Shown piece after piece: positions 15,039-22,579 of a stretch of 26,485 bases of DNA (position 1 is its first letter; every line of letters begins with the position of its first letter). The notes beneath the pieces were generated by a model. It was not told the DNA's origin and searched no databases. It saw nothing but the letters and a program-made list of their open reading frames with translations. This DNA comes from a virus. The stretch is from the IMG/VR virus record IMGVR_UViG_3300035182_000161, positions 1-26,485 of that record; one strand, 5' to 3'. The translations under genes and the position numbers were made by a program.

Positions 15039-15509
15039 ATGGCAGCATGGACAGACGTAGCAGAAAACAAATTGATTGATTGGTTTTTCCGTGCGCAAGC
15101 AATCGGAATCACAGGTGCATCAGCAGCGGCGGGTACTGGCCCAGCTAACTTGTATGTAGCGCTGTTTACAGCAAACCCAACTGACGTGGCTGGTGGCACT
15201 GAAGTTACTGGTGGGTCATATGCTCGAGTACAGGTTGTTAGCTCGCTTGCAAACTGGGCTGGCACACAGGCCGCTGCAAGTACAACTGCATCATCTGGTA
15301 CATCTGGAACAACCAGCAACAACGCAGCGGTTACATTCCCTGCTCCTACAGCTAACTGGGGTGTCGTTACTGGCTTCGCAGTGTTCGATGCGGCCACTGT
15401 CGGAAATATGTTGTTCTACTCTGCGCTTACTGTCAACAAAACAATCAACAACGGTGACGCCGCTCCTTCATTCGCTGCCGCCGCTCTAACATTCCAGATT
15501 GATAACTAA
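15039..15509 (+). CDS. Tail appendage protein (LYVALFTANP family)
   Basis: A 156-residue protein with a strong AAAGGAG ribosome binding site (15024-15030). It starts with a helix ('ENKLIDWFFRAQ'), then 'NLYVALFTANPTD', 'GGTEVTGGSYARVQV', a Ser/Thr/Gly linker, 'NNAAVTFPAPTANWGVVTGFAVFD' and a closing 'LTFQIDN' strand. I recognise this beta-rich pattern from small tail or appendage proteins of many phages. It opens the second tail cassette and is probably an adaptor or part of the fibre. It is followed by the next gene after 3 bases. Confidence 0.7.
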   Translation: MAAWTDVAENKLIDWFFRAQAIGITGASAAAGTGPANLYVALFTANPTDVAGGTEVTGGSYARVQVVSSLANWAGTQAAASTTASSGTSGTTSNNAAVTFPAPTANWGVVTGFAVFDAATVGNMLFYSALTVNKTINNGDAAPSFAAAALTFQIDN

Positions 15510-15512
15510 CAA

Positions 15513-16706
15513 ATGGCGTTCAAAACTGGCGACAGGGTACGCGAGACAAGTACGACAACCGGCACAGGTACGCTTACACTCGCCGGTGCTGTAGCTGGAT
15601 TCCAGCCGTTTTCTGTTGTTTGTGCGAATAACGATGTGTGCTACTACTGCATCACTGACAATGCTTCCTTATGGGAGGTTGGACTCGGTACTTGGGGAAC
15701 TGGCGGAACGCTTGCCAGAACAGCGGGTGGAGTTTTGTCTGGTTCGTCCGGTGCTAGCACATTAGTCACATTTGCAGCAGGTAGCAAAGATGTGTTCATC
15801 ACTGCACCAGCCTCTGAAACTTTTATGCAGGATAACAACAATATTGCGGTGATGCCGCTAACAACAGGTGTGACTACCCCCGCGGCAAGCAATTTAGGGA
15901 TATTTGTCAAGAACTTTGGCGGCAGGATGATGTTATCCCAGATTGGGCCAAGTGGGCTGGATACATCACTCCAGCCACACATCGGGCGCAATAGATCGGC
16001 GCGCTGGCAACCTATAGGAAACGCAACTACGGCACCAATTGCCGAAGGAATACTTGCGCCGACTGCACTGGGAACGGCAACGGCGAGAACTGTAGCAACA
16101 ACCAATATCTCAACCATGATGAAGCGACTCGGCTATGTGTCTGCCTCAACTGCTGGCAGTTTGTGCGGGCATTACTTCCTTGCGGGCGCACAGCAGTACA
16201 CACTAGGCACTGGCTCTGGTTTTGGCGGGTTTCACTTCGTTGAACGATTTATTGTTAGTGATGCAGCAGCGGTTTCAGGTGCACGTCAATTCATTGGTTT
16301 TCGTAACGTGGTTACGGCTCCGACAAACGTAGACCCCAGCACAGTCACAAACTGTTTTGGACTGGCGCAACTGCAAGGTGATGCAACACAGTGGTACATC
16401 GTTTACGGCGGCTCTGCTGCACAAACTGCTATTGCGCTTGGTACGACAATCGGCGCACCAACACTTACTAATACTGCATGGGATTTATCTTTCTTTGCGC
16501 CTCCCAGCCTGAATAATACTGTTTACTACACAGTCACCAATATGGGTTCAGGTGTGACAGTATCAGGGACGTTGACAGGTACAGCAGGTACGGCACTTCC
16601 ATTAAACACAGCACTACTCGCGCCCTGCGCATGGCGGTGCAACAATGCAACTGCTCTTGCCTGCGGATTAGATATTGCATCAATGTATATCGAGACAGAC
16701 CAATGA
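15513..16706 (+). CDS. Tail fibre-like protein with conserved N-terminal module
   Basis: A 397-residue protein. The N-terminal ~105 residues follow a module seen at the start of many phage fibres: 'DRVRETSTTTGTGTLTLAGA', 'NDVCYYCITDNASLWEVGLG' and 'TFAAGSKDVFITAPAS'. The C-terminal ~250 residues are a beta-rich domain with 'GFGGFHFVERFIVSD', 'GARQFIGFRN' and 'WDLSFFAPPSLNNTVYYTV', probably the receptor-facing part. No good ribosome binding site precedes ATG (only TAACAA), so it relies on coupling to the gene 3 bases upstream. It overlaps the following chaperone-like gene by ATGA, the usual order of fibre then fibre assembly protein. Confidence 0.75.
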   Translation: MAFKTGDRVRETSTTTGTGTLTLAGAVAGFQPFSVVCANNDVCYYCITDNASLWEVGLGTWGTGGTLARTAGGVLSGSSGASTLVTFAAGSKDVFITAPASETFMQDNNNIAVMPLTTGVTTPAASNLGIFVKNFGGRMMLSQIGPSGLDTSLQPHIGRNRSARWQPIGNATTAPIAEGILAPTALGTATARTVATTNISTMMKRLGYVSASTAGSLCGHYFLAGAQQYTLGTGSGFGGFHFVERFIVSDAAAVSGARQFIGFRNVVTAPTNVDPSTVTNCFGLAQLQGDATQWYIVYGGSAAQTAIALGTTIGAPTLTNTAWDLSFFAPPSLNNTVYYTVTNMGSGVTVSGTLTGTAGTALPLNTALLAPCAWRCNNATALACGLDIASMYIETDQ

Positions 16707-17086: not shown

Positions 17087-19285
17087 ATGTCAATTACGCT
17101 CAATCAGGCGTGGAGTAATGCGGGTACTAACACTGCTAATAATGTCCCACTGGCCTATGGTGCAATTCCTGCTGCTGGCGACTTACTCATTGCAGTATTT
17201 TCTCTCACTGACACGCAGACACTAACATCGCTCGCTGACACCATCGGTGATGGGGTATCGTGGGTGCAGGCAGGCACTACAGTACATGATAATAATTCTG
17301 GTTCAAACAGCTATGTCTATTATAAAACTGTAGGCACTCCCAGTGGTGGGGCTAAAACAGTCACGCTTACAGCATCAGCAACAGCCGGTATGGTGTTGTC
17401 TATTGCCGCTTATAGATCATCTGTCGCTGGAACATGGTCAACAGACGGATTTGTTAGTGTAATAAACACAACCTCGACAAACCCAAGTCCCGGCGCGATT
17501 ACCACCACTGCTGCCGATGGGGTTGTACTTGGGTATGTAGTTAAAAGTGGGGCTACACCTACTGCTGGAACTGGGTTTACCCTTCAATCAGCGCCTACTG
17601 GTTACTTCGGCTATGAAGGTGTAGAAGATCGGATCACCACGGCAGCAGGTAGTTATACAGCAGCGTGGGTCGATGGTGCTTCTAGCACATGGTCTACTCT
17701 TGGTTCTGCATTTAAGTGGGTAACAGGAGCGCCAGCAATAACAGCGCAGCCTATAAGCACAACAGTCGCCACTGGAAGTAGCTCAATTATATTCTCCGTA
17801 ACAGCAACCGGCGCTACTAGTTATCAATGGCAGCGTATGCCAAGCGGCGGTTCATTCGCTGATATAGGTGGCGCAACATCTAGCAGCTACACTACTGGCA
17901 CAGTCACAAATGCCACGAATAATCTTGACCAGTATAGATGTAACGTAACCAATGCAAGCGGTACAACAGCATCAAGCGCAGCTACCCTGACTGTTTATGC
18001 AACTACTACAGCCGCTTATACGATTGAGGGCGATCTGTGTGGTATGGGGGCAATGGCATCAGCACCGTTTAGCACGGTTAAGTTGGTTGCAACTAGTGGT
18101 GGAGCGGCTGCATTAGCAGGTACAGCATCTTGCCTAGCGGCATCAGCGGCGACTGCAACTACATCTATCAAGCTTGCGGGCGCAGCGGCAGCGGTGTCTA
18201 CAGGCGTCGCATCAATGGGTACGCCAGCAGCGGCACTTGCAGCCACACCCATGTCACTCGCGGCATCTACAGGTGGATTAAGTACCGCAATCGTAGTCAT
18301 GGCGGCATCATCGGCATCGGCCTCCGTTACTGGTGCATTGACGACTGCTATTAGGCTAACTATATCGGCACTGGTACAGGCCGCAGCGACAGCAGCGATC
18401 ACAACAAGTATTGCACTTTCTGGTGGGGCGTTAGCGCAGGCTAGTGGCACAGGCACACTCGCTACGGGGATTAGATTGGCCGCATCCCCAGTGTCGGTAG
18501 CGACAGGTAGCGCAACATTTGCGGCAACAGCAGCGGCTCTAGCATCAGATTCTTTTGCTATATCACTAAGTACAGGTGCACTCTCTACGGGGATTAATCT
18601 ATCAGCGAGCAGCGCAGTAGTAGCAACTGGCAGTGCAACATTTGCGACAACAGCAGCGGCGCTGGCATCAGATTCTTTTGCTATATCACTAAGTACAGGC
18701 GCTCTGACCACTGGGATTAATCTATCAGCCAGCAGCGCAGTAGTCGCGACAGGTAGCGCAACGTTCGCAACAACGGCAGCGGCTCTAGCATCCTCTGCAA
18801 TATCTGCATCTAGCGCAACCGGTGCGCTATCTACCGGAATAAACCTGGCTACTGGTACACTATCTCAAGCCATTTCCACTGGCGCACTGACAACACAGAT
18901 ACCGCTATCCGCTATATCAGTAGCACAAGCGGCAGCTACAGGATCGTTATCTCAATCAAGCTATAACCTGACGCTCACGATCGCGCAGGCACAAAGACTC
19001 GAAGCGGTGTGGAGACTGCACGGGCTAAGTTCACCCCTTGTTGTAACTCCAACCTCTCGCAGTGATGGTGTTGTTGCCCAGACTCTTTCAGGAGTCGGCC
19101 CGGTGACTGTAACAACAACTGCTATGCCAACAGGTCAGCAGCCTCTCGCGTCTTGGGTAGATGATATGGCTCGGTGGTATGGGTTGATTGATCCGATGGT
19201 GGAGCAGGATGCTTCTCGTACCGATGGAACACTGTCTCAGACAGTAGTAACGGCAGGCGGAATCACTACGGTGACTACAGTGTGA
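17087..19285 (+). CDS. Modular tail appendage protein with Ig-like domain and Ala/Ser-rich repeats
   Basis: A 732-residue protein in four parts. Residues 1-210 are a beta-rich module ('IPAAGDLLIAVFSLTD', 'VYYKTVG', 'SIAAYRSS', 'LGSAFKW') shared with the gene at 1124. Residues ~214-303 are an Ig-like domain ('ITAQPISTTVATGSSSIIFSV', 'YQWQRMPSGGSF', 'YRCNVTNASGTTAS'). Residues ~310-625 are Ala/Ser/Thr repeats of about 20 residues (core G-x-L-x-T-x-I-x-L), including two near-identical 41-residue units. Residues ~626-732 hold two related ~40-residue units ('RLHGLSSPLVV..TSRSDG' and 'RWYGLIDPMVE..ASRTDG'). This suggests a long surface fibre or spacer. The ribosome binding site is weak; it ends by GTGA overlap with the next gene. 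Confidence 0.7.
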   Translation: MSITLNQAWSNAGTNTANNVPLAYGAIPAAGDLLIAVFSLTDTQTLTSLADTIGDGVSWVQAGTTVHDNNSGSNSYVYYKTVGTPSGGAKTVTLTASATAGMVLSIAAYRSSVAGTWSTDGFVSVINTTSTNPSPGAITTTAADGVVLGYVVKSGATPTAGTGFTLQSAPTGYFGYEGVEDRITTAAGSYTAAWVDGASSTWSTLGSAFKWVTGAPAITAQPISTTVATGSSSIIFSVTATGATSYQWQRMPSGGSFADIGGATSSSYTTGTVTNATNNLDQYRCNVTNASGTTASSAATLTVYATTTAAYTIEGDLCGMGAMASAPFSTVKLVATSGGAAALAGTASCLAASAATATTSIKLAGAAAAVSTGVASMGTPAAALAATPMSLAASTGGLSTAIVVMAASSASASVTGALTTAIRLTISALVQAAATAAITTSIALSGGALAQASGTGTLATGIRLAASPVSVATGSATFAATAAALASDSFAISLSTGALSTGINLSASSAVVATGSATFATTAAALASDSFAISLSTGALTTGINLSASSAVVATGSATFATTAAALASSAISASSATGALSTGINLATGTLSQAISTGALTTQIPLSAISVAQAAATGSLSQSSYNLTLTIAQAQRLEAVWRLHGLSSPLVVTPTSRSDGVVAQTLSGVGPVTVTTTAMPTGQQPLASWVDDMARWYGLIDPMVEQDASRTDGTLSQTVVTAGGITTVTTV
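18542..18787 (+). repeat. 123-base tandem repeat x2 (41 residues each) in the 732-aa protein
   Basis: Units 18542-18664 and 18665-18787 start with the same GCATCAGATTCTTTTGC and differ by scattered, mostly silent changes; the protein units differ at one residue (Ser/Thr in ALSTG/ALTTG). A diverged partial unit precedes and another follows. In-frame period and near identity indicate recent unequal exchange or slippage. Confidence 0.85.
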
Positions 19286-19569
19286 GTATTCAGTCGCGGA
19301 TTGTCAGGGGTATAGGTTTTGGTGCTATAGCGGTTGCTACGCTTGGTTTACTGGATTCAACACCTACACCAGTTAACGAGGTCATCTGGACACAGGGGGC
19401 TCACGGTGGCGGCGGCGCTTCTAACGGGCAGGCTATATCGTATGATTGGCGCTCCATAGATGACCTATTCAAAACAGATAAACAAGCCGCGCTACTCCGT
19501 AGAATCCATGCCGATGATGAGGTGCTGCTCAGTGTTATAATGAGTGCCATAACGGAAGATATGATGTAA
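19282..19569 (+). CDS. Small protein closing the tail cassette (GTG start)
   Basis: A 95-residue protein starting at GTG 19282, which overlaps the previous TGA as GTGA. The N-terminus has a hydrophobic, Gly/Ala-containing segment (about residues 8-25: VRGIGFGAIAVATLGLLD), then a Gly-rich linker (QGAHGGGGASNGQ) and a helical, charged C-terminus ('FKTDKQAALLRRIHADDEVLL'). The start may anchor or plug into a membrane or virion channel. I recall similar short proteins after repeat-type appendage proteins in other phages, with no assigned function. Confidence 0.6.
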   Translation: MSIQSRIVRGIGFGAIAVATLGLLDSTPTPVNEVIWTQGAHGGGGASNGQAISYDWRSIDDLFKTDKQAALLRRIHADDEVLLSVIMSAITEDMM

Positions 19570-19582
19570 CTAGGAGATACGC

Positions 19583-22579
19583 ATGAGTTCAAAAGTATGC
19601 TTTATAGATGTTCAAAAACAGATGGAGCCCGCTGAGAAGCAGGAGTTTAAACGTCTAACACAAGAGAATATAAAAGCGGGTATGGAGGGTATACACGCCG
19701 AGGCTATGGCTTTAACTCACATGCGTATGCAAGCGGAGGAGAACGCAGCGTATCTACGAAAACAAATAACTTCTCAGCTAGGGGACAAGATACCTAAGCA
19801 AAAAGAAGCACCTAAGGAAGAGCCCGTATTAAAAGCGGAGGAAACTCCCGGTAACGAACCGCTAAAATCTGCAGAGGCGGAGCCTCTAGGGGGGTCACCT
19901 GCGGCACGTAAAGCCTCTGCCGTTGATGGTGTGTCCGCTATGGTGCATGACCTTGCTGAGAAGTATCTAGGGCCTGAAGGCCATAAGCTTGTAACTGACG
20001 TGTCGCACGTAGTCAGAAAGCTGGTAGGTTCACTCGAGTTCCTACATTCACTGGTTAACCGTATTACCCCTCATATGCCGTCTGCGAAGAAGTGGCATGA
20101 TGCATTGATCCAACGTGAGACTATGAAGAACCATCTGGAGAAAAAATATGAAGGGGTATCGCAGTTCGCTAATAAACTGAGTACTAAAGACCGGCTCGCT
20201 GTTGGTGACTACATGGCGCGGGCTTCTCTAGACAAGGAATGGGGACACCAACCGAAGGGATTAGACCGGACGGTACTGATTGACCCTATACAGAAAGAAA
20301 AGTTTGAGAAACTAAACAAAGGCCAGCAAGCATTGGTTGACGCCTTATTTAGGGCCAATGACGAATTATCACAGGTGGAGCAGAAGCAGAAGCTGATGAA
20401 GAGCAACGGTGCCCCGGGCATTTTTGCAGCTAAAGGACTACTAGATGGCCCTTACGTGCATCTCGACCGTAAGGGTGGGTTTATCGCGGTACTCAAATCC
20501 GCTGAGTATATGGCCGCTGAGAAGGCGAAGAACAAAAAGCTGCTAGAGACGATGGAGCGCGATCCTAAACATACGATCGTGAGGGCTTTCGATACACCCG
20601 GCCAAGCTGATCGGTTCGTACGTGAAAACGAAAAGAACTATGCTTCTGCCGACTATTCTGCGAAAATGCCTCAATTAGAAAACCACCGCACTATGGACCC
20701 TCAGGCATTGGATCGCTTGTCATCTGCCCTAAAGGTAGATACTACATTGTCGGCGGATGCTAAGCAGGCTATGGAGAAGAGTATCCGGTCGATGTACCTC
20801 TCAACATTAGACGCTAATAGTGCCCGCCAAGCTCACCAGAAACGAGCTGGTACAAGTGGCTGGGATGAGGATGTGGTCGCTACCGCGTTGAAACATGGGC
20901 GTGCGAAGGCGGCATACCTCGCCAATATACAGTATGGTGAGGCTATTAACGATGGGTTTTACGGGATGCTCGCTGAGATTAAACACCCTGAGACAGGGAA
21001 GCGTGTGGGTCAAGACGACTTTAATATGTTGGCCGCCCACCATGTGCGCAGCTTAGAGTACAAACCAAGCCCACTGTCAGACGGCGTTGTTACCGCCACC
21101 TCTGCATGGCAGCTGGTCACCAGCCTGGGGTACCACCTCACTAACTTTACCCAGCCAGTTATGTACTCACTACCTAGGCTAGCCGCAGATTTTGGTTCTG
21201 GTAAGTATCTAACCGCATGGGGGCACCTGCAGGATGGGTATAAACTTATGCATTCGATCACAGATAACAAAGGTATGACTATCGATCTGGCTCGTGTAAA
21301 AGACGCCAACCTACGTGAAGCGTTGAATCACGCCTCTGATATGCAGTTGTTGGACGTGGGTATGACCGAAGACTTGAAGCACTTTGACCGATTTTCCACC
21401 GGGTATAAAGCAATTGATGCAACAAGCGGTGTAGCCTCATCTGCTATACACAAGATGCGCCAAGTATCGAGCGCTGTGGAGCGTTGGAACCGTGTGTCAT
21501 CAGCTACTGCTAGCTACAATATGGCTCGGGCTGAAGGGCGTACACATGCACAGGCAAAGGATTACATGATTGAGATTTTGCGGGATACACAAGGTGATTT
21601 CTCGCATACCGCCGCGCCGCTTATACTTAAAGCGCTGCCTAAGATAGTGGGGCAATACCGCAAGTTTCAGATAATGACCGCATCGTATTATGTTAACGCG
21701 TACCAGGGAGCTTTCCACGGCGCCTCAAAAACAGAACGCGAAATCGGTAGACGACTACTAGCTTTTAAACTTACGCACACTGCGCTAGCTAGTGGCCTCC
21801 TCGGGTTACCCCTCGTGAACGTGGCGGGTATGGTCTACGATGCGGTCACTGATGGGCCCGATAAGCTGGAGGATGCTGTTGACACAGGCGACAAAACTCT
21901 GAACCAGCTGCTATATCACGGACTACCATCGTCCTTGGGCTTAGATATGAGTGCTAAGTTGGGTGAGCAGAATACATTCAGTATCGCACCCTATAGTAAG
22001 ATTGATCTCACTAGCAAGACTGGTTTGGCTACCACCGCCGCAGGTTTATTAGGTCCCGCTGTGGGCTTGGCTGGGCAGATGGCTGACGGTGTTGGACTGG
22101 TAAAGCAGGGCGATATATACAAAGGCACCGAGAAGTTTATGCCTAAGGGTATGGCCTCCGCGATGGAAGGGTTCCGCCTAGCTAACGAAGGCTTCACTAT
22201 GAAAGACGGTGACCTCGTAGTTAAGCCAGATGACATATCGTACTTTGGTTCCCTACTCACTGCCGCGAGTATCCCCTCTACTGAGGTTACGCACATCAAA
22301 AATCAGGAGTTTAAACAGCATGATGTGCTTAAGTACTATGCAGATAATAGCAAGGAACTGGAGAATAAGTACACCCGTGCGTATAAGGAGAAAGACACTG
22401 AAGCGATGGCAGACCTCCGGGCTAAGTGGATGGAGTTACAGAAGAGCAAAGATGACCAGCGCAAGCATTTTAAAGTAGTGCCGGACGCCTTGAAATACCA
22501 GCCCCTGTCAACCATGCTCGATGCACCCAATAAAGCAGCTAATCGTGAGCGCACCGGACAGATGCAGTATGGGGGCTAA
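19583..22579 (+). CDS. Very large internal virion protein, polyvalent-protein C-terminal type (998 aa)
   Basis: A 998-residue protein with an AGGAG ribosome binding site. The first ~110 residues are a charged helical and Pro/Glu-rich start. From about residue 125 it is helical throughout. The section 'VVTATSAWQLVTSLGYHLTNFTQPVMYSLPRLA' (about 505-535) and 'LPKIVGQYRKFQIMTASYYVNAY' (about 690-712) follow the pattern of the C-terminal part of large polyvalent phage proteins (PLxRFG-type neighbourhood), which are packaged and ejected into the host. Residues ~728-755 are a hydrophobic stretch ('ALASGLLGLPLVNVAGMVYD') that could insert in a membrane. No protease or kinase motif is visible. Its stop overlaps the convergent minus-strand stop. 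Confidence 0.7.
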   Translation: MSSKVCFIDVQKQMEPAEKQEFKRLTQENIKAGMEGIHAEAMALTHMRMQAEENAAYLRKQITSQLGDKIPKQKEAPKEEPVLKAEETPGNEPLKSAEAEPLGGSPAARKASAVDGVSAMVHDLAEKYLGPEGHKLVTDVSHVVRKLVGSLEFLHSLVNRITPHMPSAKKWHDALIQRETMKNHLEKKYEGVSQFANKLSTKDRLAVGDYMARASLDKEWGHQPKGLDRTVLIDPIQKEKFEKLNKGQQALVDALFRANDELSQVEQKQKLMKSNGAPGIFAAKGLLDGPYVHLDRKGGFIAVLKSAEYMAAEKAKNKKLLETMERDPKHTIVRAFDTPGQADRFVRENEKNYASADYSAKMPQLENHRTMDPQALDRLSSALKVDTTLSADAKQAMEKSIRSMYLSTLDANSARQAHQKRAGTSGWDEDVVATALKHGRAKAAYLANIQYGEAINDGFYGMLAEIKHPETGKRVGQDDFNMLAAHHVRSLEYKPSPLSDGVVTATSAWQLVTSLGYHLTNFTQPVMYSLPRLAADFGSGKYLTAWGHLQDGYKLMHSITDNKGMTIDLARVKDANLREALNHASDMQLLDVGMTEDLKHFDRFSTGYKAIDATSGVASSAIHKMRQVSSAVERWNRVSSATASYNMARAEGRTHAQAKDYMIEILRDTQGDFSHTAAPLILKALPKIVGQYRKFQIMTASYYVNAYQGAFHGASKTEREIGRRLLAFKLTHTALASGLLGLPLVNVAGMVYDAVTDGPDKLEDAVDTGDKTLNQLLYHGLPSSLGLDMSAKLGEQNTFSIAPYSKIDLTSKTGLATTAAGLLGPAVGLAGQMADGVGLVKQGDIYKGTEKFMPKGMASAMEGFRLANEGFTMKDGDLVVKPDDISYFGSLLTAASIPSTEVTHIKNQEFKQHDVLKYYADNSKELENKYTRAYKEKDTEAMADLRAKWMELQKSKDDQRKHFKVVPDALKYQPLSTMLDAPNKAANRERTGQMQYGG

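Follow-up and report, generated by a model that had tools for sequence, protein, structure and literature searches.

A 20-residue repeat array in a modular phage protein: a likely beta-solenoid in a section that appears to be exchanged among related phages

Layout of the repeat gene

The window, i.e. the whole stretch of 26,485 bases analysed here, is the entire IMG/VR record IMGVR_UViG_3300035182_000161 and has the genes of a tailed phage, which is probably podovirus-like. Searches identified an endolysin, a DUF927/primase gene, a Gp80 fibre gene and a DNA-ejection-like protein. The gene under study (Table 1) lies three genes downstream of the Gp80 homologue, separated from it by a phrog_13925-type gene and one small ORF. 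Elsewhere, at 19583-22579, the window encodes a 998-aa protein that resembles very large antirestriction proteins of the DarB-like kind at their C-terminal end (phrog_10089).

Table 1 Features of the repeat gene, its neighbours and related genes in other loci (L numbers)
Feature	Record	Position	Strand	Remarks
Entire repeat gene, 732 aa	Window	17087..19285	+	ATG to TGA; N-terminal domain, Ig-like domain, linker, 20-residue repeats, C-terminal module
N-terminal domain, aa 1-213	Window	17087..17725	+	Without family match
Ig-like domain, aa 214-305 (approx.)	Window	17726..18001	+	Sf14 gp20 type (Hoc-like decoration protein)
Linker, aa 306-332	Window	18002..18082	+	L002 DNA identity stops at ~18082; putative exchange junction
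20-residue repeat array, aa 333-620	Window	18083..18946	+	Autocorrelation, anchor spacing
Two near-identical 41-residue (123-nt) units	Window	18497..18742	+	Third unit 18743-18865, 64% alike in DNA
C-terminal module, aa 626-732 (approx.)	Window	18962..19282	+	Common to L003 (55% identity) and L004 (67%); second half only in L005/L006
95-aa gene (short overlapping gene)	Window	19282..19569	+	GTG start overlaps repeat-gene stop by 4 bases (GTGA)
Homologue of podophage GP4 fibre I protein gp80	Window	15039..15509	+	PF23140 E 2.9e-36; PDB 8jou_a E 2.4e-9; phrog_240
phrog_13925-type protein	Window	15513..16706	+	PHROG match; between Gp80 and repeat gene; same order in L022
Short overlapping gene	L003	6315-6602		
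Short overlapping gene	L004	1599-1898		
Short overlapping gene	L005	6201-6479		
Short overlapping gene	L006	1841-2119		
FDxAxFDxAxF-type protein	L022	1547-2824		
FDxAxFDxAxF-type protein	L024	5844-7028		P26059A gp0007
FDxAxFDxAxF-type protein	L025	4823-6715		Mae-JY02
FDxAxFDxAxF-type protein	L080	5318-6286		

The N-terminal domain, for which Pfam and PHROGs gave no family, also had no tblastn match in the phage collection. It is weakly like the 219-aa product of 1124-1783 in the same window (26% over 202 aa, a value inflated by running BLAST without composition correction or masking), a product that has relatives in the Burkholderia jumbo phages FLC6 and FLC8. The idea, formed by eye, that L016 and the window have this domain in common was dropped (BLASTP E 0.18). 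The Ig-like domain which the first-pass annotation had placed ahead of the repeats is borne out by matches to solved phage Ig domains, namely 9ncf_S (E 4.6e-33) and 9c2d_S (E 6e-30; Sf14 Hoc-like decoration protein), as well as to the 'tail protein' family phrog_3995 (E 3.8e-11), while Pfam Ig_3 (E 0.048) stayed under the cut-off. The domain is closest to Sf14 gp20, and its type is that of Sf14 gp20 and T4 Hoc. For Sf14 gp20 the prediction is a capsid-binding domain and then three Ig domains (PMC11821841), whereas the window protein has a single Ig domain, followed by the long repeat array.

The repeat units of about 20 residues that had been claimed for this gene are confirmed by autocorrelation, over approximately 300 residues rich in Ala, Ser and Thr (91, 53 and 49, respectively, of the 320 residues of aa 306-625). 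Against 300 shuffles, the strongest lags of aa 306-640 were 41 (z 12.1) and 20 (z 6.9); with the near-identical units excluded (aa 306-470, 500 shuffles) lag 20 was still the top one (z 4.7), and the same analysis found no period in the protein's own first 305 residues (best z 1.7). The pair of almost identical 41-residue units, likewise reported earlier, is found at both the protein and the DNA level, as part of a DNA repeat that starts at 18497 and consists of three 123-nt copies (100, 89 and 64%). Between the two units there are 14 base differences, 12 of them at third codon positions; 11 are synonymous and 3 non-synonymous. Because the differences are mostly synonymous, the protein sequence has apparently been kept by selection since the duplication, i.e. 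the units appear to be under purifying selection. On the minus strand, a frame of 282 codons (18019-18864) is open as well; it was rejected as a gene and, being wholly or largely open in relatives too, is probably a by-product of composition.

The C-terminal module, which is undescribed and which the first-pass annotation overlooked, seems by eye to contain an internal duplication. In L005 and L006 its second half stands alone between portal-like and capsid-like genes (labels read from the sequences), and a profile of the module found no relatives among 46 pattern-matching stretches of bacterial genome contigs. In five loci (the window and L003 to L006) the stop of the module is overlapped by four bases by a short gene of 92-99 aa, for which the window and L004 copies had no PHROG match. 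The portal-like protein of L005 (2704-5970) has, as read from its sequence, an apparent intein-like insertion.

Recurrence of the array and exchange of the repeat section

A tblastn search of the phage collection found no match for the entire protein, the repeats or the C-terminal module, and scans of viral contigs with the whole protein and the N-terminal domain found only the L002/L007 contig. Since low-complexity filtering hides such repeats from BLAST, the viral contigs were instead scanned with a DNA pattern for TGALTT(G/A)IxL. Long arrays with the same 20-residue period were present in 10 of the 14 matching stretches (L009-L014, L016-L018 and L022), the other four (L015, L019, L020, L021) being left out because their ORFs are without an array. 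The spacings between anchors are mostly multiples of 20, with some of 21 and 41 and some irregular gaps. Among bacterial genome contigs, arrays occurred in 8 of 48 matching stretches (the ORFs of the remaining 40 are without two correctly spaced anchors), on contigs titled Proteobacteria, Betaproteobacteria, Burkholderiaceae, Rhodocyclales, Gallionellaceae and Nitrospira; within these 48, L042 and L057 seem to represent the phages of L022 and L014 again. The 20-residue repeat is not due to chance. In L009 and L033 it is joined to a concanavalin-type lectin domain.

The window repeats alone matched no Pfam or PHROG family up to E 1, the whole protein had no NCBIfam match up to E 0.01, and ten relatives had no PHROG match up to E 0.01. 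A literature search, of which a small part was aimed at the repeat, found no paper naming it. Judged by these sequence comparisons, the repeat type is undescribed in the libraries searched, the protein itself being of a known kind.

Several relatives differ from the window in the repeat section. The DNA of L002 is near-identical to the window from 17595 to ~18082 and unrelated thereafter, which makes for a sharp junction: L002 shares the window's Ig domain and linker, after which it has a 22-residue repeat that differs in sequence (z 5.3) and a different C-terminus. Two other 22-residue repeats precede a window-type C-terminal module in L003 and L004 (z 15.4 and 12.5), the Ig domain of L004 being in a separate ORF upstream. 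The repeats of L004 match those of Mycobacterium/Gordonia phage minor tail proteins (GYAP-type; best E 1e-8, identity always under 60%), which are unrelated in sequence to the window's; the window protein had no match in the same collection. Different repeats were also found in the gene after the phrog_13925-type gene (gp0006 in P26059A) of two isolated phages, of 21 residues in Curvibacter phage P26059A (gp0007, z 14.4) and of 20 residues in Microcystis phage Mae-JY02 (z 18.6), while in Rhodobacter phage RcKemmy that gene is followed by a holin and an endolysin and by no repeat gene. The ALTT(G/A)I type of the window is thus one of at least six repeat types (those of the window, L002, L003, L004, P26059A and Mae-JY02), and it appears that the repeat section is swapped as a cassette among related phages.

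Two further observations concern these relatives. An FDxAxFDxAxF-type N-terminal motif, seen by eye, is common to repeat proteins with unrelated repeats (Table 1) and is a possible common anchor. In L002 (1351-6497) the exchanged relative comes directly before scaffold-, capsid- and tail-tube-like podophage genes, the last of which matched phrog_376 tail protein.

The Gp80 fibre neighbourhood

The gene order of the window recurs in L022, where Gp80 is followed by a phrog_13925-type protein (55% identical over 282 aa) and the repeat gene. Gp80 was found above the cut-off in 7 of the 14 viral records searched, all seven being among the ten that bear an array, and in these seven it lies on the same strand as the array gene with gaps of 0.15-3.5 kb. 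The array-bearing records without Gp80 are L010, whose contig ends at the array, and L012 and L013, both of which are short. No Gp80 was found in L002 to L005, which also lack the window-type repeat; because of this, and because relatives of the C-terminal module or Ig domain lie near capsid genes in three of these four, attachment may differ there.

In one of the closest known systems, that of podophage GP4 (tail fibre I is gp80, PDB 8JOU), chain g of 8JOU is described as a fibril linking an adhesin to the tail nozzle collar (PMC13243795). The sequence matches of the repeat protein do not include 8jou, and the phrog_13925-type profile had no match in the PDB, including the fibril chain 8JOU_g. 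The annotation of the isolated phage phiM5 notes detection in the particle proteome for the Gp80 homologue but not for its weakly periodic neighbour Sm_phiM5_18 (z 3.1). More generally, Gp80 homologues occur in 36 records, of which seven were inspected and 22 neighbouring ORFs tested for a period. Two of the 22 had a period of 20-21 residues with z above 9 (L079 5314-5991 and L080 5318-6283) and one a period of 17 (L076 7181-9370, z 22); the best lag of the remaining ORFs did not exceed z 3.8.

Predicted fold, virion location and meaning

In 56 in-register units from 11 loci, positions 11, 13, 15 and 17 are hydrophobic or small (Ala/Leu/Val-like), with a charged residue in only 1 of 224 cases, while polar residues occupy positions 14 and 18; the units were selected by positions 1-7 and by the spacing of 20, which therefore carry no evidential weight. 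AlphaFold2, given aa 306-732 as a monomer with 13 other rows, modelled a regular succession of a 6-residue strand, a 3-residue turn, a 7-residue strand and a 4-residue turn, i.e. a two-strand rung of 20 residues. Confidence was middling (pLDDT mostly 60-71 in 10-residue blocks of the array from ~aa 386) and mostly below 50 in the first ~50 array residues and in the C-terminal module.

In a structural comparison with 22 chains, the model resembled the HK620 tailspike (Z 17.1, rmsd 4.0 over 307 residues), SufD (Z 11.7, rmsd 2.5 over 168) and the tail fibre of phage 7-7-1 (Z 12.2), although part of such a Z value would be obtained with any beta-helix, and the likeness to HK620 and other beta-helices is one of predicted shape, at 8% identity for HK620. 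Foldseek found no match among viral models at E up to 0.001, the best-shaped one being A0A6J5KJQ2 (TM 0.55). According to a published study, AlphaFold2 makes confident solenoids from random perfect repeats (PMC11795689), which makes the rod fold likely rather than shown; the study reports less of this bias for AlphaFold3. The matched control was the antisense frame that is open in this DNA, aligned with its counterpart in ten relatives; its mean pLDDT was 38.5, regular structure was scarce and the highest Z was 5.3 (its weak matches again being largely beta-helices), so that periodicity alone does not yield the result of the sense frame.

It is likely, as far as the model goes, that the array consists of beta-solenoid (beta-helix) rungs within one chain. 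The regular rod proposed in the first-pass annotation is supported by the alternating residues, by a period of 20 residues that unrelated phages also show and by the predicted rung of that length, and is weakened by the middling pLDDT and the solenoid bias of AlphaFold2; that it is 'not obviously a named fold' is doubtful, since the model resembles ordinary beta-helices with Z up to 17. The opposite outcome, a disordered chain with no repeats in homologues, was not observed, the monomer model being regular and repeats occurring in many loci. The suggested role as a surface or adhesive fibre gains from the Ig-like domain and the adjacent Gp80 fibre gene, its position on the virion being a conjecture.

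Most simply, the array would serve a virion adhesin as spacer or display rod and would have its sequence exchanged, given its fusion to Ig-like (window, L002) or lectin (L009, L033) domains and its position in a fibre cluster. With about even chances, the gene product is a modular virion fibre or adhesin with a rod swapped as a cassette and fixed via the Gp80 system; fold, virion location, Gp80 attachment and receptor contact are all points that we infer. The N-terminal and Ig-like part would be a conserved base or display part, the 20-residue repeats would build a long beta-rod (most likely a beta-solenoid of one chain, each repeat supplying one turn with two short strands and its odd positions inward), and the C-terminal module would terminate it. 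The rod would probably be anchored to the tail or neck via the adjacent Gp80-type fibre-I and phrog_13925 proteins. Related phages would retain either the Ig part or the C-terminal module while swapping in repeats of ~20-23 residues of unrelated sequence, a replacement that is to be expected for a part that faces the host or sets the reach.

A location on the tail or neck is favoured because Gp80 is nearby, and the head is its main rival, since a Hoc-like capsid protein is the nearest match of the Ig domain and the relatives in L002, L004 and L012 lie directly upstream of scaffold or capsid genes (the L004 capsid by Pfam, the L002 and L012 labels read from sequence). The protein would then be a Hoc-like head decoration fibre, with its N-terminal domain on the capsid and the Ig domain and rod projecting, and the Ig part of L004 does match Hoc-like PHROGs. 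However, the Sf14 gp20 chain is matched only from around residue 110 onwards, and hardly any of its capsid-binding domain (the N-terminal 118 residues) is covered (a search of this kind would miss a divergent one), this type of Ig domain serves many places on the virion, and the repeat is accompanied by Gp80 fibre genes; a head fibre seems unlikely.

Regarding the fold, trimers are common among phage fibres, and the repeats could form an intertwined trimeric shaft, the monomeric solenoid being a modelling artefact of AlphaFold2, which was run on a monomer and is biased to solenoids (PMC11795689). This is unlikely, as the clean two-strand rung of 20 residues with its inward Ala/Leu/Ile/Val face suits a single-chain solenoid and the antisense control failed although its DNA has the same period. 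That the array would be a low-complexity flexible linker without a fold is suggested by its richness in Ala, Ser, Thr and Gly, its few aromatic residues and the middling model confidence, but is highly improbable in view of a 20-residue period kept across unrelated phages, nearly charge-free inward positions, and synonymous changes favoured between the duplicated units.

Beyond the window, a broader reading of the exchangeable rod is put forward tentatively: many tailed phages may carry such a 'cassette rod', in which beta-rungs of ~20-23 residues and of unrelated sequence are arrayed. Set between a conserved base (Ig, lectin or FDxAxFD-type start) and an end module, these arrays would be interchangeable; they would often lie in a Gp80 fibre cluster, and their replacement through recombination at a fixed junction would change reach or receptor. 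A possible parallel is the 'extra structural module' gp34-36 of Alishewanella phage LSH1. As described, the C-terminal part of the payload is a poor beta-helix model suspected to be repetitive, and its gene is beside those of a GP4-type fibril protein and an Ig-fold protein (PMC13243795); unlike the window protein, gp34 has an N-terminal domain resembling polysaccharide lyases (PMC13243795). From this description, sequences aside, we infer that the LSH1 module resembles the window cluster.

The array type of the window is missed by low-complexity-filtered searches, Pfam, PHROGs and NCBIfam, and because such arrays are nearly invisible to the usual tools, a recurrent structural part of phages stays nameless. 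If a swapped cassette is indeed carried on a GP4-type fibre, it would offer a candidate explanation, by analogy, for the LSH1 'extra structural module' with its badly predicted beta-helix (PMC13243795), and would give phages a simple general route to alter their reach or host contact.
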